A DNA stretch of 64,000 nucleotides. It comes from Cloeon dipterum (lineage: Eukaryota; Arthropoda; Insecta; Ephemeroptera; Baetidae). The notes beneath the pieces are model-generated. The model searched no databases and was not told where the DNA came from. It worked only from the letters and a program-made list of their open reading frames with translations. A program made the translations under genes and the position numbers. This document shows, one piece after another, positions 7,866 through 58,300 of the stretch; the stretch's first letter is position 1; every line of letters starts with the position of its first letter. The stretch is taken from positions 13,702,001 through 13,766,000 of the forward strand of contig NC_088786.1 in assembly GCF_949628265.1 (NCBI RefSeq), read 5' to 3'.

Positions 7866-7873
7866 CAAAATCC
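7866..7873. repeat. 8-bp target site duplication, left copy
   Basis: CAAAATCC here is repeated exactly at 21204-21211, directly outside the two 573-bp terminal inverted repeats. An 8-9 bp duplication is the size known for Merlin/IS1016-type transposases. Confidence 0.88.
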
Positions 7874-8446
7874 GGTGAGCTTCGGGTTATCCGGTAGTGA
7901 TGTGCAAATTGAAATGGCAACGTCGCAGAGGGAGGGGCTTAGGCCAGCTGGGCAATGGATGTTAGATGAGGAGTTGCCACGCTCGGTACTTTACTTTAGA
8001 CACGGGATCATCTAGTGCTGCAACCCCACGGCTAGTACGAAGGTGGACCTGACAGATTCAGGCGCTCAGGATGTTTCAGGTCGTCAACATTAAGTTATTG
8101 TATTATGATAAATAAAGGAATAAAATTCAAATTGAATAAGAAACATTATTTTGCTATTTGAAACTAACAAAATATAGTACTGAATTGAAATAAATTGTTA
8201 CGCCGTCAGGTACTCGGGGCACAAGGTTAAATAAAACATTTCTTTTTAAAACAAGTTCATTCGCAGAAAATACCAAACAAATAAATTCACGGTGTTTAGT
8301 CACTAAGTAAAATTCCATTCTGACACTGGAATCTATTTAATTTGCCAATTTCCGGTACTCAGGGTCACAGTTTGAATACACGGAAAAAAGGTTGCACGAT
8401 TTTTGAGTCGCGATTGTGCCATAAAATAATTAATTGGACCAACTGA
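7874..8446 (+). repeat. Left 573-bp terminal inverted repeat
   Basis: Matches the reverse complement of 20631-21203 end to end with equal length and few substitutions. It contains degenerate tandem copies of the unit amplified in the arrays: GGTACTCGGGGCAC at about 8207 and GGTACTCAGGGTCAC at 8354, spaced 147 bp, then 143 bp to the first array unit. The same repeat ends in ATTAATTGGACCAACTGA, also part of each 142-bp unit. Confidence 0.92.
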
Positions 8447-8496
8447 AGAAAGAAAATCGATTTCCGACGCGGGAATTTAAATAATTCGCTTTTTCA

Positions 8497-10626
8497 GGTA
8501 CTCAGGGTCGCAATTAAAAATCACGGGAACCAGTTTACACGGCTTTCTCGACGGGAACGTGTCGCAGATAATTAATTGGACCAACTGAAGAAAGAAAATC
8601 GATTTCCGATGCGGGAATTTAAATAATTCGCTTTTTCAGGTACTCAGGGTCGCAATTAAAAATCACGGGAACCAGTTTACACGGCTTTCTCGACGGGAAC
8701 GTGTCGCAGATAATTAATTGGACCAACTGAAGAAAGAAAATCGATTTCCGACGCGGGAATTTAAATAATTCGCTTTTTCAGGTACTCAGGGTCGCAATTA
8801 AAAATCACGGGAACCAGTTTACACGGCTTTCTCGACGGGAACGTGTCGCAGATAATTAATTGGACCAACTGAAGAAAGAAAATCGATTTCCGACGCGGGA
8901 ATTTAAATAATTCGCTTTTTCAGGTACTCAGGGTCGCAATTAAAAATCACGGGAACCAGTTTACACGGCTTTCTCGACGGGAACGTGTCGCAGATAATTA
9001 ATTGGACCAACTGAAGAAAGAAAATCGATTTCCGATGCGGGAATTTAAATAATTCGCTTTTTCAGGTACTCAGGGTCGCAATTAAAAATCACGGGAACCA
9101 GTTTACACGGCTTTCTCGACGGGAACGTGTCGCAGATAATTAATTGGACCAACTGAAGAAAGAAAATCGATTTCCGATGCGGGAATTTAAATAATTCGCT
9201 TTTTCAGGTACTCAGGGTCGCAATTAAAAATCACGGGAACCAGTTTACACTGCTTTCTCGACGGGAACGTGTCGCAGATAATTAATTGGACCAACTGAAG
9301 AAAGAAAATCGATTTCCGACGCGGGAATTTAAATAATTCGCTTTTTCAGGTACTCAGGGTCGCAATTAAAAATCACGGGAACCAGTTTACACGACTTTCT
9401 CGACGGGAACGTGTCGCAGATAATTAATTGGACCAACTGAAGAAAGAAAATCGATTTCCGACGCGGGAATTTAAATAATTCGCTTTTTCAGGTACTCAGG
9501 GTCGCAATTAAAAATCACGGGAACCAGTTTACACGACTTTCTCGACGGGAACGTGTCGCAGATAATTAATTGGACCAACTGAAGAAAGAAAATCGATTTC
9601 CGACGCGGGAATTTAAATAATTCGCTTTTTCAGGTACTCAGGGTCGCAATTAAAAATCACGGGAACCAGTTTACACGGCTTTCTCGACGGGAACGTGTCG
9701 CAGATAATTAATTGGACCAACTGAAGAAAGAAAATCGATTTCCGATGCGGGAATTTAAATAATTCGCTTTTTCAGGTACTCAGGGTCGCAATTAAAAATC
9801 ACGGGAACCAGTTTACACTGCTTTCTCGACGGGAACGTGTCGCAGATAATTAATTGGACCAACTGAAGAAAGAAAATCGATTTCCGACGCGGGAATTTAA
9901 ATAATTCGCTTTTTCAGGTACTCAGGGTCGCAATTAAAAATCACGGGAACCAGTTTACACGACTTTCTCGACGGGAACGTGTCGCAGATAATTAATTGGA
10001 CCAACTGAAGAAAGAAAATCGATTTCCGACGCGGGAATTTAAATAATTCGCTTTTTCAGGTACTCAGGGTCGCAATTAAAAATCACGGGAACCAGTTTAC
10101 ACGACTTTCTCGACGGGAACGTGTCGCAGATAATTAATTGGACCAACTGAAGAAAGAAAATCGATTTCCGATGCGGGAATTTAAATAATTCGCTTTTTCA
10201 GGTACTCAGGGTCGCAATTAAAAATCACGGGAACCAGTTTACACGACTTTCTCGACGGGAACGTGTCGCAGATAATTAATTGGACCAACTGAAGAAAGAA
10301 AATCGATTTCCGACGCGGGAATTTAAATAATTCGCTTTTTCAGGTACTCAGGGTCGCAATTAAAAATCACGGGAACCAGTTTACACGGCTTTCTCGACGG
10401 GAACGTGTCGCAGATAATTAATTGGACCAACTGAAGAAAGAAAATCGATTTCCGATGCGGGAATTTAAATAATTCGCTTTTTCAGGTACTCAGGGTCGCA
10501 ATTAAAAATCACGGGAACCAGTTTACACGACTTTCTCGACGGGAACGTGTCGCAGATAATTAATTGGACCAACTGAAGAAAGAAAATCGATTTCCGACGC
10601 GGGAATTTAAATAATTCGCTTTTTCA
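8497..10626 (+). repeat. Tandem array, 15 units of exactly 142 bp
   Basis: Each unit begins GGTACTCAGGGTCGC and the starts run every 142 bases from 8497 to 10485. Variation is limited to a few positions, such as ACGGCT, ACGACT or ACTGCT after the TTTAC motif and CGACGCGGG versus CGATGCGGG, which mix along the array. That suggests unequal exchange rather than simple end growth. The array continues directly from the left terminal repeat. It breaks at 10627, where TTTTTCAG runs into unrelated sequence. Confidence 0.95.
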
Positions 10627-11527
10627 GTGATGAGTACGAAATAATGTTTTTATAGCGCAAAATTACACACCACGATTGTTAAACCCCTACTAACCTCTTC
10701 CTTTTTTTATACATGCCAAGACAAAAGATGACACATCACAATACAATATTTAGTCTTTTGTAATAAACTGGCAGCAGTATTTTTTTCATTTCCTTGAATT
10801 GTCGCTATAGTCTCATTTTCTTTATTTCACCCGGAGAATTGATTTTCGTGTTAATTAGATTTACGAATCGGATGGTCGCAGCGAAACCTTGAACTTTATT
10901 TGTTTAAAATCCTGGATAAGAATTCAGTTGCGTACCTTTTGCTTATTTAAGGTTAGAATTTAAATAAATAAGCTGGCATTCCTTACTTTTCAACCAAAAT
11001 TTTGATCAATGGCATTTGGCCATTAGAATGTGATCCTATAATTAATGATTAATGATCAAATATTCAGATTGCTTTATCGTTCCTCTAATTATTTTGCTGG
11101 TCAAGTGACAAACAGCGGAGAATTGAAGTTGTTTGAATTATTATTCAGAGTGACTCTAACAGAGAAAAAATGCCTTTCGGTCGTAAAATTGGCCATAGTT
11201 ACGTTACTGAAGTTAAGATAATGCGGTCGAGACTTTGAAAATAAAATAAAAATTCTTACTGTGACTTGCAAGTTAAAAGAGGGGCAACACGTAGATAGAT
11301 GTGGAAGAGAGATGATGCTCGGCAGAGGTCAGGAAACCGTCTGCGGTCTGAGCTGGCGAAAGCAGCCTCGAAGTTCAGAGGGGGGAGGGGTGGATGTGAC
11401 ACCACTTGGGGTGTCACGGTCTAGTCTGTGATGGATAAAATAAAGTTTGGGCACTAAAGTTACTTTAAGTTAAACAGTGCTCGCTTGTCGTTGGAGGAAA
11501 AATAAAGAGAGTCCAATTTTATTTTCG
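10627..11527. other. Unique spacer between the inverted 142-bp arrays
   Basis: About 900 bp with no coding exon I can support. A GC-richer part near 11281-11420 carries an 8-bp perfect stem, GTGACACC at 11396 with GGTGTCAC ending at 11417, and an AATAAA about 25 bases further on. It could hold the transposase promoter or first exon, but nothing proves this. Confidence 0.4.
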
Positions 11528-12203
11528 TCAGTTGGTCCAATTAATTATCTGCGACACGTTCCCGTCGAGAAAGTCGTGTAAACTGGTTCCCGTGATTTTT
11601 AATTGCGACCCTGAGTACCTGAAAAAGCGAATTATTTAAATTCCCGCGTCGGAAATCGATTTTCTTTCTTCAGTTGGTCCAATTAATTATCTGCGACACG
11701 TTCCCGTCGAGAAAGTCGTGTAAACTGGTTCCCGTGATTTTTAATTGCGACCCTGAGTACCTGAAAAAGCGAATTATTTAAATTCCCGCGTCGGAAATCG
11801 ATTTTCTTTCTTCAGTTGGTCCAATTAATTATCTGCGACACGTTCCCGTCGAGAAAGTCGTGTAAACTGGTTCCCGTGATTTTTAATTGCGACCCTGAGT
11901 ACCTGAAAAGGCGAATTATTTAAATTCCCGCATCGGAAATCGATTTTCTTTCTTCAGTTGGTCCAATTAATTATCTGCGACACGTTCCCGTCGAGAAAGC
12001 AGTGTAAACTGGTTCCCGTGATTTTTAATTGCGACCCTGAGTACCTGAAAAAGCGAATTATTTAAATTCCCGCATCGGAAATCGATTTTCTTTCTTCAGT
12101 TGGTCCAATTAATTATCTGCGACACGTTCCCGTCGAGAAAGCAGTGTAAACTGGTTCCCGTGATTTTTAATTGCGACCCTGAGTACCTGAAAAAGCGAAT
12201 TAT
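11528..12203 (-). repeat. Inverted array of about five 142-bp units
   Basis: Same unit as at 8497-10626 but on the opposite strand; the marker GACCCTGAGTACCTG recurs at 11606, 11748, 11890, 12032 and 12174. The last copy is cut inside the unit near 12203. Together with the left array it forms a large inverted repeat around the 0.9-kb spacer. Confidence 0.93.
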
Positions 12204-12485
12204 CAAATATCTGGCGTTCCAATTAAAACACTTTGGTGTGGGGGGACGAAAAGATTGCAACACTGGGCTCAAGATTATTTGCGGCCACTCGGGCCACTCA
12301 GGCACAATGTAATCCGCTTGGCGGTGTTATTGGGGCCTGGGACCCAGTGAGCTCATAGCTCACGGGAAGTGCTGTGCAGATGTTCTAAACAAATATGTTT
12401 ATATTTCAAACTGAGAAAGATTATTATGAACCTTACATGTGTTTTATTCATCCCATGTTGATTGAAAATTGCGATTCAATTTCAG

Positions 12486-15126
12486 CTGTGGTCCAGGTCA
12501 ACCACTTTCCCCTTGCAGTGATAATGCAGAGAAATTTGGCTTCTATCTCAAGTGCTTGCAGGGCCCTCTGCACTGTGGGAAAAAAATTTCACCCACATTG
12601 AACACGTGGTTTGCTAACTCGCGGCTGACCGTTCATCAGGTATGTTCATTTATTTTCGTTTTATTGTAATACGTGTAGCCATAAAATTTTTGTTCTTCGT
12701 GTTGGGTAAGTTTAAAATTAGAAAACATTTTTGAAAGGCATAATCATAATCAACAATATGCACCATAAACTAAAAGTTATAACTCTCGACATTATCAAAT
12801 TAAAGCAGATAAAGTATGGGAACAACAATTATTTAATTTAATTTAGCATTAGACAGAAAATATTTTTTAGCGTTTTTTGTAAGTTTTAAATATTATTTTA
12901 GAACTTGGGACTACTTCTGTTCTTCTGCATGGAGATTGAAGTGAAGGAGGCCGCGCACAACTTTGGTGTTACCACTGAGACTGTTTGCGCCTACTACTCA
13001 AAGTGTAGGGAAGTTTGCTGCAAGCGATGGCTACATGACTTGGCAGCCCATAAGCTTGGTGGTCCTGGACAAACTGTTGAGGTCGACGAATCAATGATTG
13101 TAAAAAGAAAGTATAACAGAGGCAGAGTACTGAAGCGACAAAATATGTGGGTAGTCGGTGGTGTAGACCGGTCAACGAGGAGGTCATTTTTGTGCCTTAT
13201 CAAGAAAAGAGACCAGCATACCTTGTTTGCTGTAATTCAGCATTTTGTTATGGATGGTAATAATAATGAGGCAAAATTCTCGCTCAATCATTGCCTGACT
13301 TTTACAACTGTGAAACTTTTTTAGGCACCACGATCGTCTCCGACATGTGGGCTGGATACAACGGGATTGGAAACATGCTGAACGGTGCACACGTAACTGT
13401 CAACCACAGCAGATACTTCGTGCATCCGAGACATCCCAATATCCACACAAACACAATCGAGCGATTGTGGAAGAGTATCAAGCAGGCAACGAAAAGCTTC
13501 CAAGAGAGCGTGGTGGAGAGCCACGTGCTTACTGCAGGCTTCAAGCTTCAGCATTTCCATGAACACTTTGACCCGCTTAATCCAAAGAGACGAAGGAAAG
13601 TTCTCTCACCTGGCCAAAAGCTGGAAATTATGCTTGAGACCATCGTTATGGCCTTTCCTGGGTTAAACTCAAATGGCATCAATTTCCCCCCAAAGGTGCT
13701 TGTCAGCAAAGCAGCTCATCCTTTCGATAACATGGTATTATTTCACACTTACAACTGTAATTTTTTTGCCCATTATTTCTACCAAAATTTTCATTTTTAG
13801 AGTTCAATGATTGTTTGCTATGATGGTCAACTTGGATCACAGCATGTACCTGCTTTAGCCAATACCCTTGCTAGTTCCCCTGGTCAAGAAGCTGCCGCTC
13901 TTACCACGAACCAGCAGATGACTACGGCCAACAATGCTATCAACTTAGCTACTTCCCAGACAGTTCAAAACATTACAAGTGAACCTTGGGCTACCCTGGA
14001 GCTTGCTGCTGAGAAAATTCTGGAAATTTTGTGCAACACACAAGGTGCCTACGACACCAAACAAAATCTCACTGTAAATTAAGCGAAATTGAAATAACGT
14101 TTCCTGAAATTGTAAAACTATACATTGGATGGTATTTTTAGGCTGCCCTAAGACCATTTGATATTTTTATAAGAACAACGACTATGATGCTGAGGAATGC
14201 TGGGACACACATTTTCAATACAAGATGTCACGGAGGAGGTATTGACATCGCTGTTGAATCAACTCTTGCGGCAGGATTTTTGCAAGGTGTTAGAGTATTG
14301 AGCACTCTTGGTAAGTTCCCCCTTGATAGAAATCTATTTTTCAAACATGATTCTATTGTGATTTCAGGCGGTGGCGACTGCTTCTTCAGCTCAGTCTCGT
14401 GGAACACAATTGGCTCAAGGGATTGTGCCGCTATCATCCGACTTACAGCATTAACAATAATACTGAAGTATTTTGATGATTTTGACACCGCCTGCATGAG
14501 GTGAGGCCACCAATCACGTTGCTAATATTATAGTTTTAATCGAAGAGCAAATATATAGTAATTTTCTTCAATTTATCAAATTAACAGTTTTTATCATAGG
14601 GTCGAGATCGCAATACATCATGGTCCTGATGGTGCAATGAGCTTGATAAGGGCTGCAGGTGGACTTGCTAAACGGACTTTGCACACTGTCATTGGAAATC
14701 AATATCCAAGTCTTGTAGCCAACTTCAACTACAGCAGTTGCGCAACTATTCTTGCCTGCTCCATTGCTCTGAAGTCGAAGATGGCAATCTACGAAGATGT
14801 GGCACAAGCAAATACTGGGCCAATGATGACTTTGGCTCAGTTGGACCTGGACTTCAGGATGGAATCGTCAAGGCCAGTCTCATTGAGAAAGTAAGAGGAT
14901 ATAAATTGCATTCTAAAACCTGGTTAAATTTATTCCGTATCATTACAACAGGTACCGAAACTGTTTACTCATCATAGGATCCCAAGGATACGCAAAACAT
15001 TTAAGGGTTCACCTCAAACACTCTCATTTCACTGCCTTTATTCCGTGTTCCCGTCTGACACCAGCTATGCTTCTACCCCAGAGAATGGTGACATTGCAGT
15101 TCAATTTGGACGCAACTGATTTGTAA
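12486..15126 (+). CDS. ISXO2/Merlin-type DDE transposase joined to an OTU-like domain
   Basis: Eight exons join in frame: 12486-12639, 12902-13256, 13325-13734, 13801-14073, 14142-14310, 14368-14500, 14600-14890 and 14952-15126 (TAA). They give about 652 residues. The first coding exon is not resolved, so the N-terminus is incomplete. Exon 1 carries cysteines of a zinc ribbon followed by TWFANSRLT, as in IS1595/Merlin transposases. The catalytic core is intact: VEVDES (Asp 113), VSDMWAGY (Asp 176) and HTNTIERLW (Glu 215), counted from Cys 1. After a Thr/Gln/Ala linker (residues about 307-397), GGGDCFFSSVS (Cys 458) and HSHFTAFIP (His 620) resemble the Cys and His boxes of OTU cysteine proteases, though the usual Asp three before Cys is Gly. 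Two adjacent genes are possible, but phase continuity across all seven introns favours one fusion. Confidence 0.82.
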
Positions 15127-15540
15127 TCTAGGCCTGTGCTTTTATACGTGTATATAAATAATTTGTAAAACCTTAAATTAAATCACAAATTAAACAGAAT
15201 CGTGTATAACGAACATTTTCGTTTGTTTAAATTAATAGAATTTCCAGACTCAGCTACTTGTGTAAAACTAGTCAGATTATTATCACAGAGCTTAGAAAGT
15301 AGAAAAATCTTCAAGTTTTTAATACAACACAGATTGCAAACGCATGTTAGCTTAGCCTCACAATGGTACCATATGGTTTTACATAATACAAAGCCATGAC
15401 AGGTATGTCTCGTGATTCCGTGCTCTGTTTGTATAACAAGATTCCTTCCAGGTCTGGGTGACCATTTTGTGCGCGTGTCGTTAAATTCCGACTCTACCTG
15501 GGAGAACTTTAACATTTGATTTGATTTAATTTACTAGGAA

Positions 15541-18500
15541 TTAGATTGCAGCATCCAAAATCGATTTCATATTGAACGTTTGCAAAGAAAATAATTTAGA
15601 ACACATTGAAATAAACAAATCCGTGTTAACCATTTTCTTTGAATTTTTATTAAAACCCTGAGATTCCTGAAATCGTTAAAAAAATCAAATTAATTAGATT
15701 GCAGCATCCAAAATCGATTTCATATTGATGGTTTGCAAAGAAAATAATTTAGAACACATTGAAATAAAGAAATCCGTGTTAACCATTTTCGTTGAATTTT
15801 TATTAAAACCCTGAGATTCCTGAAATCGTTAAAAAAATCAAATTAATTAGATTGCAGCATCCCAAATCGATTTCATATTGATGGTTTGCAAAGAAAATAG
15901 TTTTGAACACATAGAAGTTAAGAAATCCGTGTTAACCGGTTTCGTTCAATTTTTATTAAAACCCTGAGATTCCTGAAATCGTTAAAAAAATCAAATTAAT
16001 TAGATTGCAGCATCCCAAATCGATTTCATATTGAACGTTTGCAAAGAAAATAGTTTTGAACACATAGAAGTTAAGAAATCCGTGTTAACCGGTTTCGTTC
16101 AATTTTTATTAAAACCCTGAAATAACCTGAAATCGTTAAAAAAATCCAATTAATTAGATTGCAGCATCCAAAATCGATTTCATATTGATGGTTTGCAAAG
16201 AAAATAGTTTTGAACACATAGAAGTTAAGAAATCCGTGTTAACCGGTTTCGTTCAATTTTTATTAAAACCCTGAGATTCCTGAAATCGTTAAAAAAATCA
16301 AATTAATTAGATTGCAGCATCCCAAATCGATTTCATATTGAACGTTTGCAAAGAAAATAGTTTTGAACACATAGAAGTTAAGAAATCCGTGTTAACCGGT
16401 TTCGTTCAATTTTTATTAAAACCCTGAAATAACCTGAAATCGTTAAAAAAATCCAATTAATTAGATTGCAGCATCCAAAATCGATTTCATATGGATGGTT
16501 TGCAAAGAAAATAGTTTTGAACACATAGAAGTTAAGAAATCCGTGTTAACCAGTTTCGTTCAATTTTTATTAAAACACTGAAATAACCTGAAATCGTTAA
16601 AAAAATCAAATTAATTAGATTGCAGCATCCAAAATCGATTTTATATTGATGGTTTGCAAAGAAAATAATTTAGAACACATTGAAATAAAGAAATCCGTGT
16701 TAACCGGTTTCGTTCAATTTTTATTAAAACCCTGAAATAACCTGAAATCGTTAAAAAAATCAAATTAATTAGATTGCAGCATCCAAAATCGATTTCATAT
16801 TTATGGTTTGCAAAGAAAATAGTTTTGAACACATAGAAGTTAAGAAATCCGTGTTAACCAGTTTCGTTCAATTTTTATTAAAACCCTGAGATTCCTGAAA
16901 TCGTTAAAAAAATCAAATTAATTAGATTGCAGCATCCCAAATCGATTTCATATTGAACGTTTGCAAAGAAAATAGTTTTGAACACATAGAAGTTAAGAAA
17001 TCCGTGTTAACCGGTTTCGTTCAATTTTTATTAAAACCCTGAAATAACCTGAAATCGTTAAAAAAATCCAATTAATTAGATTGCAGCATCCAAAATCGAT
17101 TTCATATTGATGGTTTGCAAAGAAAATAGTTTTGAACACATAGAAGTTAAGAAATCCGTGTTAACCGGTTTCGTTCAATTTTTATTAAAACCCTGAGATT
17201 CCTGAAATCGTTAAAAAAATCAAATTAATTAGATTGCAGCATCCCAAATCGATTTCATATTGAACGTTTGCAAAGAAAATAGTTTTGAACACATAGAAGT
17301 TAAGAAATCCGTGTTAACCAGTTTCGTTCAATTTTTATTAAAACACTGAAATAACCTGAAATCGTTAAAAAAATCAAATTAATTAGATTGCAGCATCCAA
17401 AATCGATTTCATATTGATGGTTTGCAAAGAAAATAGTTTTGAACACATAGAAGTTAAGAAATCCGTGTTAACCGGTTTCGTTCAATTTTTATTAAAACCC
17501 TGAGATTCCTGAAATCGTTAAAAAAATCAAATTAATTAGATTGCAGCATCCCAAATCGATTTCATATTGAACGTTTGCAAAGAAAATAGTTTTGAACACA
17601 TAGAAGTTAAGAAATCCGTGTTAACCGGTTTCGTTCAATTTTTATTAAAACCCTGAGATTCCTGAAATCGTTAAAAAAATCAAATTAATTAGATTGCAGC
17701 ATCCCAAATCGATTTCATATTGAACGTTTGCAAAGAAAATAGTTTTGAACACATAGAAGTTAAGAAATCCGTGTTAACCGGTTTCGTTCAATTTTTATTA
17801 AAACCCTGAAATAACCTGAAATCGTTAAAAAAATCCAATTAATTAGATTGCAGCATCCAAAATCGATTTCATATGGATGGTTTGCAAAGAAAATAGTTTT
17901 GAACACATAGAAGTTAAGAAATCCGTGTTAACCAGTTTCGTTCAATTTTTATTAAAACACTGAAATAACCTGAAATCGTTAAAAAAATCAAATTAATTAG
18001 ATTGCAGCATCCAAAATCGATTTTATATTGATGGTTTGCAAAGAAAATAATTTAGAACACATTGAAATAAAGAAATCCGTGTTAACCGGTTTCGTTCAAT
18101 TTTTATTAAAACCCTGAAATAACCTGAAATCGTTAAAAAAATCAAATTAATTAGATTGCAGCATCCAAAATCGATTTCATATTTATGGTTTGCAAAGAAA
18201 ATAGTTTTGAACACATAGAAGTTAAGAAATCCGTGTTAACCAGTTTCGTTCAATTTTTATTAAAACCCTGAGATTCCTGAAATCGTTAAAAAAATCAAAT
18301 TAATTAGATTGCAGCATCCCAAATCGATTTCATATTGAACGTTTGCAAAGAAAATAGTTTTGAACACATAGAAGTTAAGAAATCCGTGTTAACCGGTTTC
18401 GTTCAATTTTTATTAAAACCCCGAAATAACCTGAAATCGTTAAAAAAATCCAATTAATTAGATTGCAGCATCCAAAATCGATTTCATATGGATGGTTTGC

Positions 18501-20613
18501 AAAGAAAATAGTTTTGAACACATAGAAGTTAAGAAATCCGTGTTAACCAGTTTCGTTCAATTTTTATTAAAACACTGAAATAACCTGAAATCGTTAAAAA
18601 AATCAAATTAATTAGATTGCAGCATCCAAAATCGATTTTATATTGATGGTTTGCAAAGAAAATAATTTAGAACACATTGAAATAAAGAAATCCGTGTTAA
18701 CCGGTTTCGTTCAATTTTTATTAAAACCCTGAAATAACCTGAAATCGTTAAAAAAATCAAATTAATTAGATTGCAGCATCCAAAATCGATTTCATATTTA
18801 TGGTTTGCAAAGAAAATAGTTTTGAACACATAGAAGTTAAGAAATCCGTGTTAACCAGTTTCGTTCAATTTTTATTAAAACCCTGAGATTCCTGAAATCG
18901 TTAAAAAAATCAAATTAATTAGATTGCAGCATCCCAAATCGATTTCATATTGAACGTTTGCAAAGAAAATAGTTTTGAACACATAGAAGTTAAGAAATCC
19001 GTGTTAACCGGTTTCGTTCAATTTTTATTAAAACCCTGAAATAACCTGAAATCGTTAAAAAAATCCAATTAATTAGATTGCAGCATCCAAAATCGATTTC
19101 ATATTGATGGTTTGCAAAGAAAATAGTTTTGAACACATAGAAGTTAAGAAATCCGTGTTAACCGGTTTCGTTCAATTTTTATTAAAACCCTGAGATTCCT
19201 GAAATCGTTAAAAAAATCAAATTAATTAGATTGCAGCATCCCAAATCGATTTCATATTGAACGTTTGCAAAGAAAATAGTTTTGAACACATAGAAGTTAA
19301 GAAATCCGTGTTAACCAGTTTCGTTCAATTTTTATTAAAACACTGAAATAACCTGAAATCGTTAAAAAAATCAAATTAATTAGATTGCAGCATCCAAAAT
19401 CGATTTCATATTGATGGTTTGCAAAGAAAATAGTTTTGAACACATAGAAGTTAAGAAATCCGTGTTAACCGGTTTCGTTCAATTTTTATTAAAACCCTGA
19501 GATTCCTGAAATCGTTAAAAAAATCAAATTAATTAGATTGCAGCATCCCAAATCGATTTCATATTGAACGTTTGCAAAGAAAATAGTTTTGAACACATAG
19601 AAGTTAAGAAATCCGTGTTAACCGGTTTCGTTCAATTTTTATTAAAACCCTGAGATTCCTGAAATCGTTAAAAAAATCAAATTAATTAGATTGCAGCATC
19701 CCAAATCGATTTCATATTGAACGTTTGCAAAGAAAATAGTTTTGAACACATAGAAGTTAAGAAATCCGTGTTAACCGGTTTCGTTCAATTTTTATTAAAA
19801 CCCTGAAATAACCTGAAATCGTTAAAAAAATCCAATTAATTAGATTGCAGCATCCAAAATCGATTTCATATGGATGGTTTGCAAAGAAAATAGTTTTGAA
19901 CACATAGAAGTTAAGAAATCCGTGTTAACCAGTTTCGTTCAATTTTTATTAAAACACTGAAATAACCTGAAATCGTTAAAAAAATCAAATTAATTAGATT
20001 GCAGCATCCAAAATCGATTTTATATTGATGGTTTGCAAAGAAAATAATTTAGAACACATTGAAATAAAGAAATCCGTGTTAACCGGTTTCGTTCAATTTT
20101 TATTAAAACCCTGAAATAACCTGAAATCGTTAAAAAAATCAAATTAATTAGATTGCAGCATCCAAAATCGATTTCATATTTATGGTTTGCAAAGAAAATA
20201 GTTTTGAACACATAGAAGTTAAGAAATCCGTGTTAACCAGTTTCGTTCAATTTTTATTAAAACCCTGAGATTCCTGAAATCGTTAAAAAAATCAAATTAA
20301 TTAGATTGCAGCATCCCAAATCGATTTCATATTGAACGTTTGCAAAGAAAATAGTTTTGAACACATAGAAGTTAAGAAATCCGTGTTAACCGGTTTCGTT
20401 CAATTTTTATTAAAACCCTGAAATAACCTGAAATCGTTAAAAAAATCCAATTAATTAGATTGCAGCATCCAAAATCGATTTCATATTGATGGTTTGCAAA
20501 GAAAATAGTTTTGAACACATAGAAGTTAAGAAATCCGTGTTAACCATTTTCGTTCAATTTTTATTAAAACCCTGAAATAACCTGAAATCGTTAAAAAATT
20601 AGAATGCAGCATC
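15541..20613. repeat. Tandem array of about 33 units, 153-154 bp, with higher-order repeats
   Basis: Units begin TTAGATTGCAGCATCC; starts at 15541, 15694, 15847 and 16000 are 153 apart, and units with AAATAACCTG in place of GATTCCTG are 154. Variant blocks recur with spacings of 1382, 615 and 1382 bp (for example a unit with ATTTATGG, or with ATGGATGG), so a block of 13 units, about 1997 bp, has been duplicated. Unit features AAACCCTGAGATTCCTG, AAATCGATTT and GTGTTAACCGGTTTCG line up in the same order with the inverted 142-bp unit, so the two satellites are diverged relatives. The array directly abuts the right terminal repeat. Confidence 0.95.
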
Positions 20614-20630
20614 GGAGAGATATTTTTTTG

Positions 20631-21203
20631 TCAGTTGGTCCAATTAATTATTTTATGGCACAATCGCGACTCAAAAATCGTGCAACCTTTTTTCCGTGTA
20701 TTCAAACTGTGACCCTGAGTACCGGAAATTGGCAAATTAAATAGATTCCAGTGTCAGAATGGAATTTTACTTAGTGACTAAACACCGTGAATTTATTTGT
20801 TTGGCATTTTCTGCGGATGAACTTGTTTTAAAAAGAAATGTTTTATTTAACCTTGTGCCCCGAGTACCTGACGGCGTAACAATTTATTTCAATTCAGTAC
20901 TATATTTTGTTAGTTTCAAATAGCAAAATAATGTTTCTTATTCAATTTGAATTTTATTCCTTTATTTATCATAATACAATAACTTAATGTTGACGACCTG
21001 AAACATCCTGAGCGCCTGAATCTGTCAGGTCCACCTTCGTACTAGCCGTGGGGTTGCAGCACTAGATGATCCCGTGTCTAAAGTAAAGTACCGAGCGTGG
21101 CAACTCCTCATCTAACATCCATTGCCCAGCTAGCCTAAGCCCCTCCCTCTGCGACGTTGCCATTTCAATTTGCACTTCACTACCGGATAACCCGATGCTC
21201 ACC
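20631..21203 (-). repeat. Right 573-bp terminal inverted repeat
   Basis: Reverse complement of 7874-8446, ending GCTCACC at the target duplication. Differences are single-base, for example GCTAGC here against the left GGCCAGC, and GCATTT against the left ATACCA region. Confidence 0.92.
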
Positions 21204-21211
21204 CAAAATCC
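21204..21211. repeat. 8-bp target site duplication, right copy
   Basis: CAAAATCC, identical to 7866-7873. Confidence 0.88.
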
Positions 21212-23312: not shown

Positions 23313-25563
23313 CTACTGGTTGTGAGGCAGTGCCAAAGCCAAGCCAAAGATTTCACCCGTCTTGTTGCTGCCAATGAAGTGGATATTTGTCACTGAGCTC
23401 CTCCATGCCTTTTTCCTATTTCTGATACTCGCCCTCAATGTCACGTTACTGTTTCCTTCGTCCAGCATGTTGCTCACAACTAGCTTGTAGGGCACCTCAG
23501 CTTTAAGAAGAATCGGATTGCTGAGCTCAATGCAGTACTGCTGATTTATATTGGTGTAATTCTTCGTGTGATCCATTGGGAATCCTTGGAAAATGGTAGT
23601 GCTGAGAATTTGTTCACCAGACATCAGCGTCACCTAAAATATCACCAAAAGTAAAATAAAGAAAGATTTATTCAACACAAAACGTCTAAATAACAGACAA
23701 GAAAAAATTGTAGATCAACGCTCAGGCTTGAGACAAGGTTGTATTAATTTTCTTATCAAAGTCATTATCAAATTAAATTGTTACTAAATTGTTGGTTTAT
23801 CTCAATATTTTGCATTCACATCGGTGCTCACTCGCGAAGGAGTGATAGATCATTTTTTTACAAATTAAGTAATAAATCATGAAAAAATATGTGTCCATGA
23901 TAACTCCAAAATTATGTTTGCTGTAACTCACAGTCATTGACTTTTTAATTTTAAGAATATTAAGTAACAGTACGAGCTGAGATGAGAATATTTTAACGGC
24001 ATCCTTTGAAATAGATGAGTCGAACGCGTACCCTCTATTTACAAAAACAGCGTAACATTTCAAAATGAAAAACAATACACGACACAAATTTTTTCTGAAG
24101 AAAAGAAACGATTTTATTTTAATGTGAATATCCCTGCATAAATAATACCTCGTAGTTACAAGAGATTTCCCTCTTGCATTTTAAGCTGTCAAGATAGATT
24201 CCAAGCAGGTAGACATCATCCTCCACCCAAAATTTTAATGAAGTCTCAATGTTTGGTGTTATTTTCTCAATTGGTTTATGTTTCCAACAAACATCATGTC
24301 TCTCTTTCATTGCCTTTCTAGATTCAGTTATGTGGGAGAAACCTATATGTGCATACATTTTATCTCATGAACATCATGTGTTGCAATAAAAAAGTACAAC
24401 TCACCTGTAGGTAGCAGAGGTTTTTTTTGCACGATGCTCATTGCTATGCTTTGAGCTTCTGGAATTGTTAAAATGTCTGGCGACAAAAGAGGGTATTTTC
24501 GTATAAAATTTATAAAATCCTTGCAGCCGACGGTGTAAAATCTGATTAGGCGGATAATTTTGCCTATAATGGCTTTATCTTGAACCTGCAGCTCTACCAC
24601 AGCTTCTGCGAATTGCATCTCAGAGTGGATACTGATATTGCAATCACTGTCGCTTAAAACATCGATTAGGATTTCGCAGCTTTTGTCAGGGTGGGTTTTC
24701 CACATTGGAGATCCCACTACTCTCTCGAAGTTAAGGCATATTTTCTAAACCATAAAAAAGCTAAGTAAATTATTTCAATCTACACCGAAATTTAAGCTTG
24801 CAATAAATTAAATATTTGTATAAAAGAATGTTACCTCCTTGATGCGCTGCATAATCATAACATTTCCAACTTGCTTGCTTATTATATAAAGTTTGCCCAA
24901 TTCTTCAGGTTGAGATTGCTCTAAATTGTGTTCTGCGATTTTCTCCAAACATGCTACATTCCATACGTGTGCGAAAAAATGAGCTTCAATTGCTATCTTC
25001 TGCGATGGAAACTCAACTGTCCTTTCATACAGGTACCTGCATAATTATTTTTTTTTTTAAAATCAGCGTTTACTTTGCAGTATAAAATATGACCGACTGA
25101 AATCGACATGGATATATAAATCAATGAAGGAGCTGTTGCAAGCAAATATTTCAAATAAATAGTTATGTTACAAACAGCATCATGAAATCATTTCATAAGA
25201 GTGTATCTTCAATAATTTAATAAGTAGCGCAGATATAAGTAGTGTATTAGTACTCAAGAAAGAATGCAAAGGCTTCTTCCGAAGTGTCGCCGAGGTTGAT
25301 TATTTCATCTGGATTTTTATATGCATCTTTGAATGTTGTTGATTGTAACATTGCTTTAAAGGGTGGGCTCGCCCAGCTGAAAATCTGTTTGTGGCATCTG
25401 AAAACCTGAAATTTCACTGGTTCTGTGAGCGTGTAAAAAGGTCCAACTATAAATAATTCACCTTCGTGCCAACTTTGAATGAGCAGTCATAATCTTTCCC
25501 AGAACGAAACAAATCGCTCATGAAGTGAAGATGCTGGAAGCAACTTTTCTTTCCCCGAATCAT
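23313..25563 (-). CDS. BTB-BACK-PHR domain protein, divergent BTBD1/2/3/6-like
   Basis: Six minus-strand exons join in phase: 25462-25574, 25254-25405, 24835-25036, 24405-24744, 24149-24342 and 23313-23633. Starting at the Met codon 25561-25563 gives 436 residues; the exon opens with an acceptor, so a 5' exon exists and the true start could be further upstream. Residues about 15-105 form a BTB/POZ domain (DYDCSFKVGTKVFRCHKQIFSW, shown in part; FFLEYLYERTVEFP). A BACK-like helical region follows to about 250 (ACLEKIAEHNLEQ, FINFIRKYPLLSP). The last two exons form a PHR-like beta domain (FWVEDDVYLLGIYL, SVTNIHFIG). Such proteins commonly act as Cullin-3 substrate adaptors. Sequence is divergent, so an exact orthologue is not assigned. 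Confidence 0.72.
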
Positions 25564-45151: not shown

Positions 45152-48100
45152 ATGTCAGATGAAGCTGGAGACTCGACAGACATGTCAGGCAAAAGTGACG
45201 TGCCTGCTAAAGGGGATAAAATGAATGTGGACCAAGGAGACGCAAATAATGATGAAGAGGAAAAGAAGAAACTTGAAGACGAACAGAGGGTTAAAGAAGA
45301 AAATCGAGTAAAAGATAATTAATTCGAAAATATGGCTTGAAACACTTGTCTTTTCTTTCCCCCAGAATTATTTATTGGATTATATACGGGACACAGAGAA
45401 CCGGTATCAGGAATGGGAAGTAATCAGGAAGAAGAACCTGAATGTCACGAGACCAGAGGAGTCGTACTTTAGCAAACTGGATTCAAACTTAAAGAAAAAC
45501 ACGGCATGTGTTCGAAAGATTGTAGGGACTCTCTAAAACTAAATTCAAGCCAAAACTTACTTCCACTTTTTCATAGAAAAATTTCACGGCAACTCAGGAA
45601 GAGGCTATCCTAAAGGACTTAAAAAGCTTGAACCTGACCAAGTACATTAGTGAAATTGCCGCCGCTTTGGTTGAAGCTAAATTGAAAATGACTGATGTGC
45701 AGGCAGCTGTCAGCATATGCTCATACCTGCACCAACACTATGCAGAGTTTACTACGCACCTGTTAGAAAACTGGCAGAAAGCGTTGACCTTCAAGAGGGA
45801 TGAAAAGGTTTGATGTTAATGAACAGTAGAGAAAATATGTTTAACTTTTGTTTTGCAGGTTCCCAACATCAGCAAGTTGCGAGTGGACCTTCGTTTTTAT
45901 GCTGAAATCATTCACGCTGGAATTTTCACCAACAAAGAAGGGCTGCCGTTATTGGGCACCGCCCTGACAAACTTGACCAGTTATGACAAAGAGGAGCACA
46001 ACAATATCAACGTTCTCCTGAGTTTTTGCAAGCATTGTGGAGAAGACTATGCAGGTAATATGCAACATTGTTTGATGTACACAATTGCAAAAATTGTGTT
46101 GTGCTACCTTTGATATTCTCAGAAAACTGGTTGATTCACATTTTGATGGGACATCATTTTGCTTTTGCAAGAAGTGCAGTGCCTCTTTTAACGTTACACA
46201 CTGGCATTTTTGTTCTATTAGCGAAAAAATTGATTTGTCTTTGTTAAATAATTGGGGTTTGGCATGGTTAAAGATAATTTTTGATTTGTATTGTTTTAAT
46301 TGCTCAAATCTACACTTATGAGTCAGAAGATTAAAATGAATTCAAATATCCCTGCAGGGCTAATGCCAAGAAAAATCAGAATTCTCTCTGAAGAATTTAA
46401 CATGGCAGTTCCTGTTAGCCGACTGCTCCTGCCTGAAAAGCAGAAAAATGTAAAGCAGCTATTCAAAGACTACTGTTCCAGCCTATGCAAACATTTGGTT
46501 GAGGTGAGTATCTGGGATTAATAAAATCAGGACTATGAAAAAATCTTCTAAATGGCTGCATTTAATATAAAATTTTTAGGTTCACAAAGAGCTGCGGCAG
46601 TTTGAATATCAAAATAAGAAAATTCTGCAAACTAAAGGTGAGCTCTCACCAAGCAGGAAAGCCAAGGCTGATGATCTGCATGCTGCATACAAGAAACTGT
46701 TTGAAGGAACACAATCGTTCTGCGAAATCCTTGACGAGGACATGCCTGAGCTTCAAGTTGAAGGTTTTTTATTTAATTCAACTTCACCATTCAAAAAAAT
46801 TAAAGACCAACTTTTAGACATTGCTAGAAATGAAGAGCAGGAACTTAAAGTGTCGGGAGTTGACATTGAGGAATACACTAAAGAATCCCTCTTGTGGGAA
46901 AATGAGGACACAAGAAACTTTTATGAAGACCTCCCTGACCTTAAGGCCTTTGTGCCTAGCATTCTGTATAAGGACAGTGCGCAGCCTACTATCCAGCCTG
47001 AATCTGATGAGGCCATTGAGTCTAAGCTGGATGAGGAGTTGGAGGAGATTGAGGATGGAAAGGAAGAGGCGAAGAAAGAGGACACTCCCCCTGTTGAAGT
47101 CGAAGGTAAGCATCCCTTAATATAATTTTGATATCATTAAGCAAACCTTAATAAATGAAGATGACGAATTTTATCAACGAATGGTAGTTCTAAATTCAGT
47201 GTAATGAATTACATGCAATTGTCATATTTGGCCATTTTAACTCCTCATTAAACTACCCATTAAAATACCCTTAAAAATGTTGCTTTTTCTTGAGTTTTTG
47301 GCCCACGCAGTAGTCAACATTTTTTTTGTCAAGCAGTCCTAAAGTTAAAAGTAAAAGCAAAAAATCAGCAAACATGATAAGATTGAAATTTGAGGCTCTC
47401 CTCAAAAGGTAATCACAAATAGCGGAGCTATAAAGGAATGAAGATTTGTGATTGACTCAGACATATAAATACTATCTGTATGTAGTAAAAACATGTCGGC
47501 TATTGAACTGATATCCTCAAATGTGAGCTGTTTGAAACTCAATTCAATTCTTTAGAGTTGAAAGAAATCATCAACCAAGAAAGTTATTTTAGTGCTTGTA
47601 AACATTTGCACTAATTGTGTGACCAGTAGATTAGCCACGCTCAATCAAGTTACTGCTTCTGATTGAACTGACCAACAAATGTTTTAACTTGAGCCTCAAA
47701 TTTTGTATCATTTTGTGTTGATAAACAAATATATTTTGGAAGAAAAAAACTCCCTTTCCTCTTGAAGCTCATCCCTTAACAACATGAATCTAGAGAGGGG
47801 TCCCAAAAAACAGTGAAAATATGAAATCTTTGCTAAAACAGGAGAAAATAGAAATCTAACCAAGGATGGCTAAGTCGGCTATTTGTACTTAGCACTGCTA
47901 TCATTAAATTATAAATTTATTTCGATCTAATGCTGTACAAATCTGACTTCTAAAATAATATCTATATACTTTGGTTTTTCAAAGTTTGCTTAGAGTAGTT
48001 CTTACAATAAAGTAGGTTTTAAGGTCAGCCTATATAATCCATGTTCCCTTGTACTCGTTACGGGGAAATCAATGAAAGTTGCTAAGTTCAAAAATCCACT

Positions 48101-51100
48101 TTAGAACCCGAGGAGCCCGAGACAGTTTCAAACGCAAGTAACAAGATCGTGATGGATGCATTTGTGAACCACTTGATGAACTGCGTCAATCGGAACCTGG
48201 TTGACAACGCCGCCTCTGAGTTTGTTCTCAGTCTAAACACGCGGGTGAACCGAAAAAAGCTGGTGAGGTGTCTATTTGGCGTGCAGCGCACCAGGACCGA
48301 CCTGCTGCCCTTCTTCGCCCGACTGGTTGCCACCCTGCACCCCTGCATGCCCGACGTGGCCACCGACTTGGCCCTCCGGCTAAAGCAGGATTTTAAGTAT
48401 CACTTCAGGAAAAAGGTTTATAAATTTACCTGATGGCTCTGATTGCTTCTAAAGCTTTATTTTTAGGACCAAATCAACATTGAGTCGAAGATCAAAGTGG
48501 TCAGATTCATCGGGGAAATGGTCAAGTTCAAAATGTATTCCAAAGTGGAGGCTCTGTACTGCTTGAAACTGCTTCTCCATGACTTTACGCACCACCACAT
48601 TGAAATGGCGTGCAACCTGCTCGAGGTTTGCGGAAGATATCTGCTTCGATCCTTGGACACTCATCAACGGACCAAAGTCTACTTGGTAATCTTATAATCA
48701 TACCAGATCGGTTCATTAACTTTATTTGCTATTAGATAAATCAATTAATGAGTCAAGTTCACTTTCAATGAGTTAATTTTTAATAATTTTAATATATGGA
48801 ATTTGTAGGGATGATTATGATAGTGTTTTTGAACCAAACCTTCAATTTGAAATAGTATTTTTTATTTCATCCCCCAATAAAATGGGAAATAAACTGGATT
48901 CTTATTGCAATTAATGTCACTCCAGGAGCAAATGATGAGGAAGAAATCTGTGATGGCACTCGATTCGCGATATGTGACCATGATCGAGAACGCTTACTAC
49001 CAAGTGGACCCTCCTGAAGTTAGCCCAAGTCAAATGCGCGAAGAACTGCCACCGATGCATGAGTACATCCGCAAATTGCTATACCTGAACCTGAACAAAC
49101 AGCCCGTCGATAAAACCCTGCGGCAAATGAGAAAGCTTAACTGGAATGACGCGGATGTTGCAGCATATGCGGTCAAATGCATGACTCACGTTTGGAACGT
49201 CAAATACCTAAACATTGGCTTCTTGGCCAGTCTCTTGGCAGGGCTGGCTGCATATCAGGTCAGCATGAATTCTGAAATTAAATTATGCTTGAAGGCGTGT
49301 AAGATAGGTGTGTGTGTTCGGGAGTCTTTTAAGGGTAATTGTCAATTTTACCGACTTTATTTCTCCATCCTGAATTTTACATATGTTGTTAGGGGTGTTT
49401 CATAGTGTGTAACCTGAAATTTTGAGCAAAAAATTCGGGGGCTTTTGTTGGGAAATCGCGATTTTCGAAAACGGAAAATTTCAGATAGTAAATCCGAAAT
49501 ATCAAGGTATCTTCGGTCCAGATTGGAATTTCGATGTAGTTTTTTCACCTCCACACGTAACTTTTTCAGTAAAACAAATTTGCCATTGGTAAAAAATTTG
49601 TAGGTCAAAGGTCAAGGTCACAAATTCGCGTGCCAAATGTTTGGTTAAAAATATCGCAAAATACGCCCCCTCGGATTTTTTTCATGAAAACGTAAAAAAT
49701 GTAGCCCTGAATTTGTAGAATCGAATGGTGAAGAGAAATCGATGGAGACTCTAATAGATCGCGAGATATTTTGAATTTAAGGAATCGTGTCGGGCGTCCG
49801 GCACGATGACAATATCATCCGGCGATTTTACTTTCGTAATTTACGTCGGAATTTGATATGTAACCCACATGTTATGCATATGATTACCTAGAAAAATAAA
49901 CGAGCTTTCTAGTGGTGTGCTTAAATTTTGTTTTGGTTTCAAACTTCTCAAGAAATAGCGGCGCGCGAAAATAAAATATAAATATTTCAAATTTTGATAT
50001 TTTTGTAAATCTCAAATCTCGGGTTCTAACCATAAGAATTGCAAAAACTACCCACCGTTGGACTCGTCTCGACCTTCCCTAACCAGCTGAAAGGTTTAGG
50101 GGTGTTTACCCTCCACCCCTAAATTGCTAAACTTCAACCCCCTAGAAAAAAACAAAAAAATGTAGCGTCTTACAGTTAGGGGTGGAGGGTAAACACCCCT
50201 AAACCTTTCAGCTGGTTAGGGAAGGTCGAGACGAGTCCAACGGTGGGTAGTTTTTGCAATTCTGATGGTTAGAACCCGAGATTTGAGATTTACAAAAATA
50301 TCAAAATTTGAAATATTTATATTTTATTTTCGCGCGCCGCTATTTCTTGAGAAGTTTGAAACCAAAACAAAATTTAAGCACACCACTAGAAAGCTCGTTT
50401 ATTTTTCTAGGTAATCATATGCATAACATGTGGGTTACATATCAAATACCGACGTAAATTACGAAAGTAAAATCGCCGGATGATATTGTCGTCGTGCCGG
50501 ACGCCCGACACGGATCCTTAAATTCAAAATATCTCGCGATCTATTAGAGCCTCCATCGATTTCTCTTCACCATTCGATTCTACAAATTCAGGGCTATATT
50601 TTTTACGTTTTCATGAAAAAAATCCGAGGGGGCGTATTTTGCGATATTTTTAACCAAACATTTGGCATGCGAATTTGTGACCTTGACCTTTGACCTACAA
50701 ATTTTTGACCAATGGCAAATTTGTTTTACTGAAAAAGTTACGTGTGGAGGTGAAAAAACTACATCGAAATTCCAATCTGGACCGAAGATACCTTGATATT
50801 TCGGATTTACTATCTGAAATTTTCCGTTTTCGAAAATCGCGATTTCCCAACAAAAGCCCCCGAATTTTTTGCTCAAAATTTCAGGTTACACACTATGAAA
50901 CACCCCTAACAACATATGTAAAATTCAGGATGGAGAAATAAAGTCGGTAAAATTGACAATTACCCTTAAAAGACTCCCGAACACACACAGGTTTGAAGTC
51001 AATTCTATGACATTTAAAAAGGCCAGATAAGAAACAGTCTGAATATTAAGAAGTATTCCTAAAAAATTGCCACCATCTGAAACAACATTATTTTAGTTTC

Positions 51101-55355: not shown

Positions 55356-58300
55356 CTACGCCTCCTCCTCGGGCGCCTTTTCTTCCTCGCCTGCCTGCTT
55401 CTCGTCAGGGGGTTGGTCGGTCTCGGTCTCAGCGGCCGCGGCAGCTACGGCCGCCGCCTCCTTCTCCTCAGAGCCCTCCCTGGAAACCTTGTTTCGTAGG
55501 CCTTTACGCTCGGCCAGCTTGCTCACCGTCTCCTCGAGCTTTGTCAGCGAGCCTAAGCCTTGGCTACGCGACTTGCTTTTGTGGCGTCCGGAGGATTTGG
55601 GTTCGTCCTCGGCCGCCTTGGCCGCCGCCTTCTCCAGTTGGGCGCGGGCCAGCTCGTTGGCCGCGTCCAGCTGCTGCTGCAGGAGTAATCGCTGGATCTG
55701 CTGCTGTTGTTTCTCGAGGGCAGACGAGGCCCGCTTGTGGTTGGACGACGACGACTGGCTGCTGGAGCGATGGCCCTTGCTGCTGCTGGTAATGGTGGTC
55801 GCGGAAGAGGTGCCCATGCCGTTGAGCAACTGGCTCTGCTGAACCAAGTTGTCGTAGGCAGAGCCCAGTGACGACGGGGACGAACCGAACGGGTTGAGTC
55901 CACCCAGGCCGAGCGGCGTGTACAGCAACGACGGGTTCGGGAAGAAGAGATTTAGGGAAGACGTTGGGATGGACGCCGAGGCGGATGACACAGCCGCCGC
56001 CTGCGACACCGACAGCGAGCTCTTGGACTCTTTGGGCGCCGAGCTGCGAGACTTACTCTTGGATGAGCCTGCGGAGGTGGACGCCCCCTGCCCTTCGGAG
56101 CCATCAAGTCCAAAGCCCAGGCTGGCCAGGTTGGCAAACAGGTTACTGCTCAGCCCACCGAAACCTGAGAGGCCGGCAAGGCTGCTCATGCTAGGCATCG
56201 AGCCGGCCGCCGCTGCAAACGCTGGCAGCAGCAGCGGGTTCTTCGGGTCAAATGGGCCCAGCGGGTTCTTCGGGTCAAACCCGAGCGACTTAGGGTCGAA
56301 GCCCAGGGATTTGGGGTCAAACCCAAGTGACTTGGGGTCGAAGCCTAGAGACTTGGGGTCAAACCCGAGTGATTTAGGGTCAAACCCAAGCGACTTTGGG
56401 TCAAAGCCGAGGGACTTTGGGTCAAAGCCTAGGGACTTTGGGTCGAAACTGGCCAGCGGGTTTTTCGGATCGAATCCACCTAGTCCCAGGCTGGACAGTA
56501 GACTGGGGTTTAGCCCAGACAAAGCCGCTAACGATGGGTTGAACGGCAGCCCCATGGCCGCTGCGGCCAAGCTGTTAGCATCAGACGCAGAAGCCTGCTG
56601 CACTGATCGACTCGAGCTGCTCTTCTTGCTGCTGCCCTGGCCACTACTTGAGCCAGCCGCGGCCGACGCGCTGCTTTGCTGGCCAGAGCCACCACCGCGT
56701 TTTGAAGAAGCGCTTGTAGGGAAGTTACCCATCTCTTTGAGCATTTCATTCCACTTGGGGTCAATTTCGAACATGGGATTCTCCAGAAGCCACTGACCCA
56801 GTTGTTTCAAAGATGGAGCTTTACTGCCGGTTAACTGTGAACACGAATATTTGATTAATTTACACCAATACTATTATAGATTATTTTTTTAAACTGAGTT
56901 TTAGCGCTATTTCCTGGTTTTAAGTTTGATTAATATGTACCTTTTTGCCAGTTGATCGGTTGATGACCGGAATGTTCTCTTCTCCAGTGATCTTTTTCCA
57001 ATCCAAGATGGGAGGCGTTTGTTCTTGCCTTGGCTTGCGTCTACGTGCCAGGAAGTCGGCGGTGAGGTCATTGTTGACAAGGCCGCTTTGCTCAGACAAC
57101 CACTTTTTGACCTGCGACATCAGCTTTTTTACAGCTCCACGAAATCAACACCAATAACAAGGTCCGGAAAGTGTTTTCAAATACCAAGATAGAGAAAAAT
57201 GCCAATTTCACAGTCCGAGCCTTGTTAGAAAACAGCAGGAAGTAGACTTACCTTGGCTTCTTGCGAGTATGAACTGACCTTGGCCGAGAGGTCGGCCATT
57301 TTGTTCATGTCGGCCAGCACAGCCTCATAAGCCGCGGCCGCGGCTGCTGTCGATGACATCTTGCTATGTGCTGATGGTAGCGACATACCCAGTGAAGAGC
57401 CCTTCTTACCGCCCGACGCGCCGGTTAGCAAGGCGAGTGACGCCGCCAGGTCTGGTTGCGGCAGCAATGAAAACGTGTCCTTCAACGAAAATAATGTTTG
57501 TTTAACAACAAGTAATGATCAAATTTGCATAAATCGTAGAGATGATTCAGATTATGAAGATAATATTGCGGGCTTAGCAAGAGTAAGTAATTTGTCATTT
57601 ATTTGAATTATCAACTGATCAAATCAGGCTCACGAAATTGTAGCACAAAATGGTGAATCACAAAAATGTCGTAATTTTTAGTTTTAACTATTTTGAAAAG
57701 GCTAGAATAGAAATCACCAATAATTCGAGCAGCTTTAATGCAGCGACTCTGATAGAGCAAAAGTGCGACATGACTTATGTGTTGATTTTGCATCATTATC
57801 TTTTCAATACCACACATTCAGGATGCAGTTTAAGACAATCACCTTGCAGGCGGCACTGGAAATGGGTGGCATGGGCGGCGGCGGCGCCCTGGAGGAAGAT
57901 GAGGCCGCCGAAGAAGGCACTGACGTCACCGTGATGGTGAATGGCGGCTTAGAGGCGGACGAGATGGGTGGGTGGTTGGACGGCGTGGGCGCGCCCTTGT
58001 GCACATGTGGCCGCAGCAGAGGGTGGAGAGTGGCGCCACCCGGGGGTGGCGGCAGGTGCGACGGTGGCTGCTGGTGGGCCGGCGACGTGTTAGTGCCGCC
58101 GACCACGCTGATGGTCGCTGCTGTCTTTTTGATCAGCTCAGCAACGCCAGCATGCGCCGCCTGCTGTTGCTCAGCCTTCGCAGAGCTAAGACCCATCACG
58201 ATCTCGTCCAACTTGCGCCGCTTCTTCTCCTTGCCGCCCGCGGAAGCGGCCGGCTCCTCTTGTTTACGCTTCATCAGCTTGTCCAGCATGTCGTCCAGGC

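Follow-up and report, generated by a model that had tools for sequence, protein, structure and literature searches.

A 13.3-kb Merlin-like DNA transposon with extensive internal tandem arrays in Cloeon dipterum

We analysed a stretch of 64,000 nucleotides from the genome of Cloeon dipterum (Insecta, Ephemeroptera, Baetidae; NCBI RefSeq assembly GCF_949628265.1, contig NC_088786.1, positions 13,702,001 to 13,766,000 of the forward strand), in which a preliminary description had noted a giant, apparently young transposon resembling the Merlin superfamily. In the following, this whole stretch is called the window, and all positions refer to it. The element spans positions 7874-21203 (13,330 bp). 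It is very probably a Merlin-superfamily DNA transposon of the cut-and-paste type, and one likely to be autonomous, which was inserted as one unit and became long when an ancestral subterminal unit multiplied in tandem to the left and the right of its gene. The likeness to Merlin was borne out by a DDE_Tnp_IS1595 domain with an aligned D-D-E triad, by inverted ends that start with GG, and by an 8-bp duplication of the target site.

Boundaries and inverted ends

The limits of the element are given by the following features:

7866-7873, no strand: left target-site duplication CAAAATCC (from the printed flanks)
7874-8457, plus strand: left terminal inverted repeat, beginning with GGTGAGC (from self-comparison of the window)
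20622-21203, minus strand: right terminal inverted repeat (from self-comparison and alignment of the ends)
21204-21211, no strand: right target-site duplication CAAAATCC (from the printed flanks)

The alignment of the two ends that the preliminary description had proposed was carried out and gave an identity of 98.63% over 584/582 bp (7874-8457 against 21203-20622), with six mismatches and two gap openings. The first 572 columns of this alignment contain no gaps and five mismatches; the earlier figure of 573-bp ends of equal length with few mismatches was thus right within one base. The outermost base of either end is the exact start of the homology. Both ends open with GGTGAGC and hence carry the 5'-GG that is a feature of Merlin, and the left end overlaps the first 142-bp unit of the adjoining tandem array by about 32 bp. 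The exact 8-bp duplication that had been reported could be located as well: CAAAATCC directly flanks the element on both sides, in agreement with the 8- or 9-bp duplications of Merlin. For this superfamily, a GG-start rule of the inverted repeats and 8-bp duplications are described in PMC8101967 (statements on the literature, here and below, refer to the accessible parts of the cited papers).

When random position pairs were drawn from this window, an adjacent 8-mer was common to 194 of 2,000,000 pairs. Since the boundaries had been defined beforehand and so few random pairs match, the duplication is not a product of chance, and because it is exact and flanks the whole structure, it points to the insertion of the element as one unit. 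Comparison of the element with the remainder of the 64-kb window by blastn yielded no match at E 1e-3. Folding of the 120 outermost bases as DNA showed nothing remarkable (z 0.48), and neither Rfam at its gathering thresholds nor a tRNA search returned any match.

The near-identity of the ends had also been taken to imply recent movement, and on this point we do not follow the preliminary description. Unlike long terminal repeats, terminal inverted ends are not resynthesised as identical copies at each move, and gene conversion can level them. An identity of 98.6% is therefore no clock; dating the insertion in this way was rejected, and a young age of the element is not established. A recent move would agree with the exact 8-bp duplication and the open exons, neither of which gives a date.

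Transposase gene and C-terminal extension

The gene lies on the plus strand and was modelled in two parts:

12487-13734, plus strand: transposase part of the gene (spliced model; exons 12487-12639, 12902-13256 and 13325-13734)
13801-15126, plus strand: C-terminal extension, in frame with the transposase part (exons 13801-14073, 14142-14310, 14368-14500, 14600-14890 and 14952-15126; GT-AG introns)

With single open reading frames (ORFs) as queries, Pfam reported the ISXO2-like domain at 16.5 and 21.3 bits, both below the cut-off of 27. Joined at GT-AG borders, the three exons of the transposase part (the acceptor AG of the exon 12487-12639 is at 12484-12485) encode 306 residues, and the spliced protein matched DDE_Tnp_IS1595 (PF12762) with an E-value of 2.7e-13 and 50.6 bits, which is above the cut-off of 27. 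With the IS1595 transposase model of NCBIfam (NF033547) it reached an E-value of 7.3e-20 and 71.8 bits, slightly below the cut-off of 75. Weak hits of the transposase part to SHS2_FTSA (Pfam) and to IS66 transposase and sigma70-ECF (NCBIfam) were all below cut-off and were taken as chance or distant matches. What had been described as an open transposase gene is therefore a transposase, as the 50.6 bits of the spliced model confirm, but its gene is split by introns, and its first coding exon could not be located. The eight exons of the model all have an open frame, with GT-AG introns between them. For the Zn_Tnp_IS1595 domain, the lack of which is a feature of Merlin, no match was obtained at E ≤ 1; this result covers the protein as modelled, downstream of the missing start exon and hence of the far N-terminus.

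The codons for the catalytic D, D and E are located at 13085, 13342 and 13459, as was checked in the sequence. A scan of prokaryotic genomes delivered 12 related loci out of 27 pattern matches. Upon re-alignment, D176 and E215 of the partial protein were matched in all 12 loci, and D113 in nine of the ten loci whose alignment covers this position, the tenth (L008) having an A. These loci are not all independent, as L004-L006 look like near-copies of each other. Relatives of the transposase in viral contigs were not confirmed for any of seven pattern matches, and a tblastn search of plasmids gave no match at E 1e-5. A eukaryotic Merlin protein was not among the results of these prokaryotic, viral and plasmid searches.

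Downstream of 13734, the five exons of the extension prolong the same open frame by 346 residues, up to a TAA at 15124. The introns that join these exons are 57-99 bp long and of the GT-AG type; upon retention of the intron at 14074, the frame stops at a TAA at 14080. The extension contains GGGDCFFSSVSWNTIGSRD, in which we saw, by eye, a resemblance to the Cys box of OTU proteases. In an alignment, GGGDCFFSSVS (from 14368) is in register with the OTU DG-C box, with G replacing D. A further segment, KHSHFTAF, holds, by eye, a candidate for the C-terminal His of an OTU protease. To score this resemblance, a home-made OTU profile was built from three PDB fragments. Among the 1,218 ORFs of the window with at least 30 aa, ORF 14142, which consists of exons plus one in-frame intron, ranked first with 6.8 bits, a score exceeded by two of 2,000 shuffles. 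The spliced protein scored 2.8 bits on the same profile, lower than the single ORF. The extension matched nothing in Pfam (up to E 10, with the HMMER filters dropping most weak matches), in the PDB (up to E 10) or in NCBIfam, and none of six pattern matches in viral contigs was confirmed as a relative. Because there is no database match and the scores of the home-made profile are weak, the term “OTU-like” is used here only as a lead. As far as its candidate Cys box goes, the extension may resemble an OTU protease, and it is a possible novelty of this element. It could be translated together with the transposase as one protein, or else form a separate second product.

Tandem arrays and other features of the window

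Apart from the ends and the gene, the element consists largely of tandem repeats:

8426-10627, plus strand: tandem array of a 142-bp unit, 15.5 copies, 99% matches (Tandem Repeats Finder)
10628-11515, no strand: 888-bp spacer between the inverted 142-bp arrays (ORF and similarity scans)
11516-12203, minus strand: second 142-bp array, 4.8 copies, inverted with respect to the first (Tandem Repeats Finder and self-comparison)
15539-20598, minus strand: tandem array of a 154-bp unit, 32.9 copies, 95% matches (Tandem Repeats Finder)

Together, the three arrays make up 2,202 + 688 + 5,060 = 7,950 of the 13,330 bp (60%), and 5.4 kb remain. Neither these arrays nor the five exons downstream of the transposase part figure in the preliminary description. 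The attribute “giant” is thus justified by the measured length, but since most of this length is tandem array, the structure is better described as a roughly 5.4-kb element that swelled. Cargo genes were rejected as the cause of the length, as there is one gene region of 3.3 kb besides the three arrays.

The second 142-bp array, whose start was placed at 11523 by Tandem Repeats Finder and at 11516 by self-comparison, is 98-99% identical to the first in the opposite orientation. The 15 whole units of the left array are 0-2 bases off their consensus, and the four whole inverted units are 1-3 bases off the same left consensus. In the 154-bp array, a higher-order period of 13 units (about 2.0 kb) was detected, with an identity of 98.4% at lag 13 (32 units compared); the remaining lags between 1 and 19 gave 94.4-97.5%. 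The spacer contains no stop-to-stop ORF of at least 95 aa and has no similarity to the window outside it at E 1e-3; it could hold the first exon of the gene or its promoter. Between the gene and the 154-bp array there is a minus-strand open frame of 115 aa (15186-15530), possibly a chance occurrence, which had no Pfam match at E 1.

Judged by sequence similarity, the 142- and the 154-bp unit belong to one related family. After rotation to the same start, the two consensuses were aligned with a score of 86, compared to 39 for the best of 500 shuffles, and a single pair of units scored 69 against 41 for shuffles. The family reaches into the inverted ends: the inner part of the left end contains the core motif at 8209 and 8354, both times within degenerate sequence, and one of the degenerate units (d2, 75 bases tested) scored 51 with a best shuffle of 34. 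Of the core CTCAGGGT, 36 copies were counted in the element and three in the other 50.7 kb of the window. The 16 occurrences on the plus strand (8358-10489) all lie within the left end and the left array; the 20 on the minus strand are distributed over the 154-bp array (14), the right end (1) and the inverted 142-bp array (5). The motif is oriented inward from each end, with the exception of the five copies in the inverted array. The possibility that the arrays are unrelated host satellites was rejected on account of the degenerate unit inside the inverted ends.

Outside the element, 20 ORFs of the window were scanned with Pfam, nine of which matched under the E-value limit used. The matches of the first ten ORFs include an SV2 luminal domain, TBC, MIF4G, a CHD6-9 helix and Myb, and the second ten gave four matches, namely BRK and three below the family cut-off (MFS, AMP deaminase and a second TBC piece). 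The MIF4G ORF matches UPF2 in the PDB (E 6.8e-36), and no PDB match was obtained for the ORF at 23316-23633. Downstream of a UPF2-like exon (48086-48430), positions 49309-50989 form a near-perfect palindrome, which matches its own reverse complement to 96.9% over 1,687 columns and may be a foldback element or a long-armed miniature inverted-repeat transposable element. An AGGT on either side of it could, by eye, be a 4-bp duplication. In addition, an in-frame tandem repeat at 56268-56449 encodes a repeated FDPKSLG in the minus-strand ORF that also holds the BRK domain, and at 58754-59017 there is an inverted repeat (about 88 bp, 81% identical).

Comparison with known elements and interpretation

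Inverted ends of 24-462 bp are given for Merlin elements (Feschotte 2004, as quoted in PMC8101967), and three curated Merlin consensuses from a study of bivalves have a mean length of 1,635 bp (PMC10294476). With its 13.3 kb and its 584-bp ends, the element described here is beyond both of these figures. It further differs in its total of about 53 unit copies and in its C-terminal extension, nothing of which kind is mentioned in the accessible parts of the Merlin literature compared. Internal tandem repeats as such are found in some Merlin families: Lopes et al. describe them, including one repeat region that is duplicated in the opposite orientation (PMC8101967), and arrays in Merlin are therefore not new in kind. 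In Sy.m_F1 from Symbiodinium microadriaticum, a tandem repeat with such an inverted duplicate lies in the 5' region, but this element measures 2.57 kb, with 2.3 copies of a 52-bp unit and ends of 51 bp (PMC8101967). The bacterial insertion sequences of the IS1595 group share the transposase domain, and 8-bp duplications are usual for them; they are, however, prokaryotic and have a single transposase gene (PMC8101967), whereas in C. dipterum the gene is interrupted by introns and the element has long ends and arrays.

Galileo and Tetris, two foldback-like elements of Drosophila, also have tandem repeats in their long inverted ends. In Galileo these repeats hold binding sites of the transposase (PMC3688188), and in Tetris repeats of about 220 bp have expanded into satellite arrays (PMC4079207). 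With regard to the extension, Ginger1 carries a C-terminal cysteine-protease domain (OTU or Ulp1) and its transposase in one gene (PMC2836005) and is thus a precedent for a C-terminal OTU domain on a transposase. Its transposase is of the integrase type and not of the IS1595 type, and its OTU domain is recognised as pfam02338, in contrast to the extension found here, which lacks a Pfam match. Among the matches listed in our literature search and in the accessible texts, neither an OTU-like extension nor such a length was reported for a Merlin element; Repbase and supplementary tables were outside the scope of this search.

If the element works like others of the Merlin/IS1595 group, in which the 8-bp duplication arises by a staggered cut, its transposase would bind the ends, excise the element and reinsert it with an 8-bp stagger. 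The simplest view of the subterminal unit with the core CAGGT..CTCAGGGT, which on each side appears oriented like its own inverted end, would be that a repeat belonging to the end of the transposon itself has multiplied. By analogy, the unit may be, or may once have been, a repeat to which the transposase binds. As has been suggested for Galileo and Tetris, slippage during replication or unequal exchange could have multiplied it, and the small inverted 142-bp array could be the result of a local inversion or an inverted duplication.

A role of the units in binding is not the only way to account for the arrays. They may be passive proto-satellites, multiplied by recombination and of no use in transposition, to which we assign slightly less than an even chance; this competes with the binding function only and is compatible with the identification as Merlin. 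The homogeneity of the 142-bp units, with 0-2 changes from their consensus, and the 13-unit period are typical of satellite turnover, Merlin has been proposed as a carrier of proto-satellites by Lopes et al. (PMC8101967), and the repeats of Tetris did give rise to satellite arrays (PMC4079207). On the other hand, related units on both sides, inverted with respect to each other and with a degenerate copy in the ends, are the layout to be expected of subterminal binding sites. We regard binding repeats and passive satellites as about equally likely, and they are not mutually exclusive. Far less credit can be given to a composite origin, in which independent elements or a host satellite were inserted beside or within a small Merlin. 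The two unit lengths, the inverted second array and the 888-bp spacer of unexplained origin could be read in this way, but this is very unlikely in view of the membership of both unit types in one family with a degenerate copy in the inverted ends, the single exact duplication around the whole element, and the lack of blastn matches to the rest of the window.

It is also unlikely, if less so than a composite, that the copy is dead and unable to move, or that the array lengths are guesses of the assembly. The start exon was not found, and long, near-identical arrays such as these are prone to misassembly. Against this, the D-D-E residues are present, the eight modelled exons have kept their frames and GT-AG introns, and the arrays carry ordered variants rather than exact copies.

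We thus consider a probably autonomous Merlin transposon, inserted as one unit and swollen by the growth of its own subterminal repeat, to be the best explanation. Several observations weigh against it. The evidence rests on one copy of the element. The ends exceed the range quoted for Merlin, with 584/582 bp against 24-462 bp, a range which we take as descriptive and not as defining. For the start exon, 16 candidates with an ATG, a GT donor and at least eight codons were present in 10628-12470, none of them convincing, and as modelled the coding capacity is therefore incomplete. As to the repeat family, the reverse complement of the 154-bp unit, used as a control, scored 45 and thus also more than the best shuffle (39), so that the shuffles understate the background. 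With a score of 46, the outer degenerate unit (d1) stayed below its best shuffle (48) and by itself lacks significance. Although the 154-bp array has 32.9 copies, the exact core is present there at no more than 14 places, the consensus form of this array being TTATTTCAGGG, and the left-right symmetry of the motif does not hold for the inverted 142-bp array.

A more far-reaching proposal would be the fusion of a Merlin transposase with a deubiquitinase domain of the OTU-like kind, in a Merlin element that has dozens of transposase-binding repeats in its ends and serves as an active nursery of satellites. This would be a further OTU-recruiting architecture beside Ginger1 and some Helitrons, and we regard it as doubtful.

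Our results show that Merlin elements, which are normally short, can attain a length of 13 kb with matching ends, an exact duplication and the residues of the transposase kept. They also show that satellite-like arrays with two different unit lengths can have a common source in one family of subterminal units, which extends into the inverted ends. Should the extension be a true OTU protease, Merlin would join the transposons that are linked to the removal of ubiquitin. Other copies of the element, if they exist, would allow a direct test of whether the repeats help in transposition or merely ride along.

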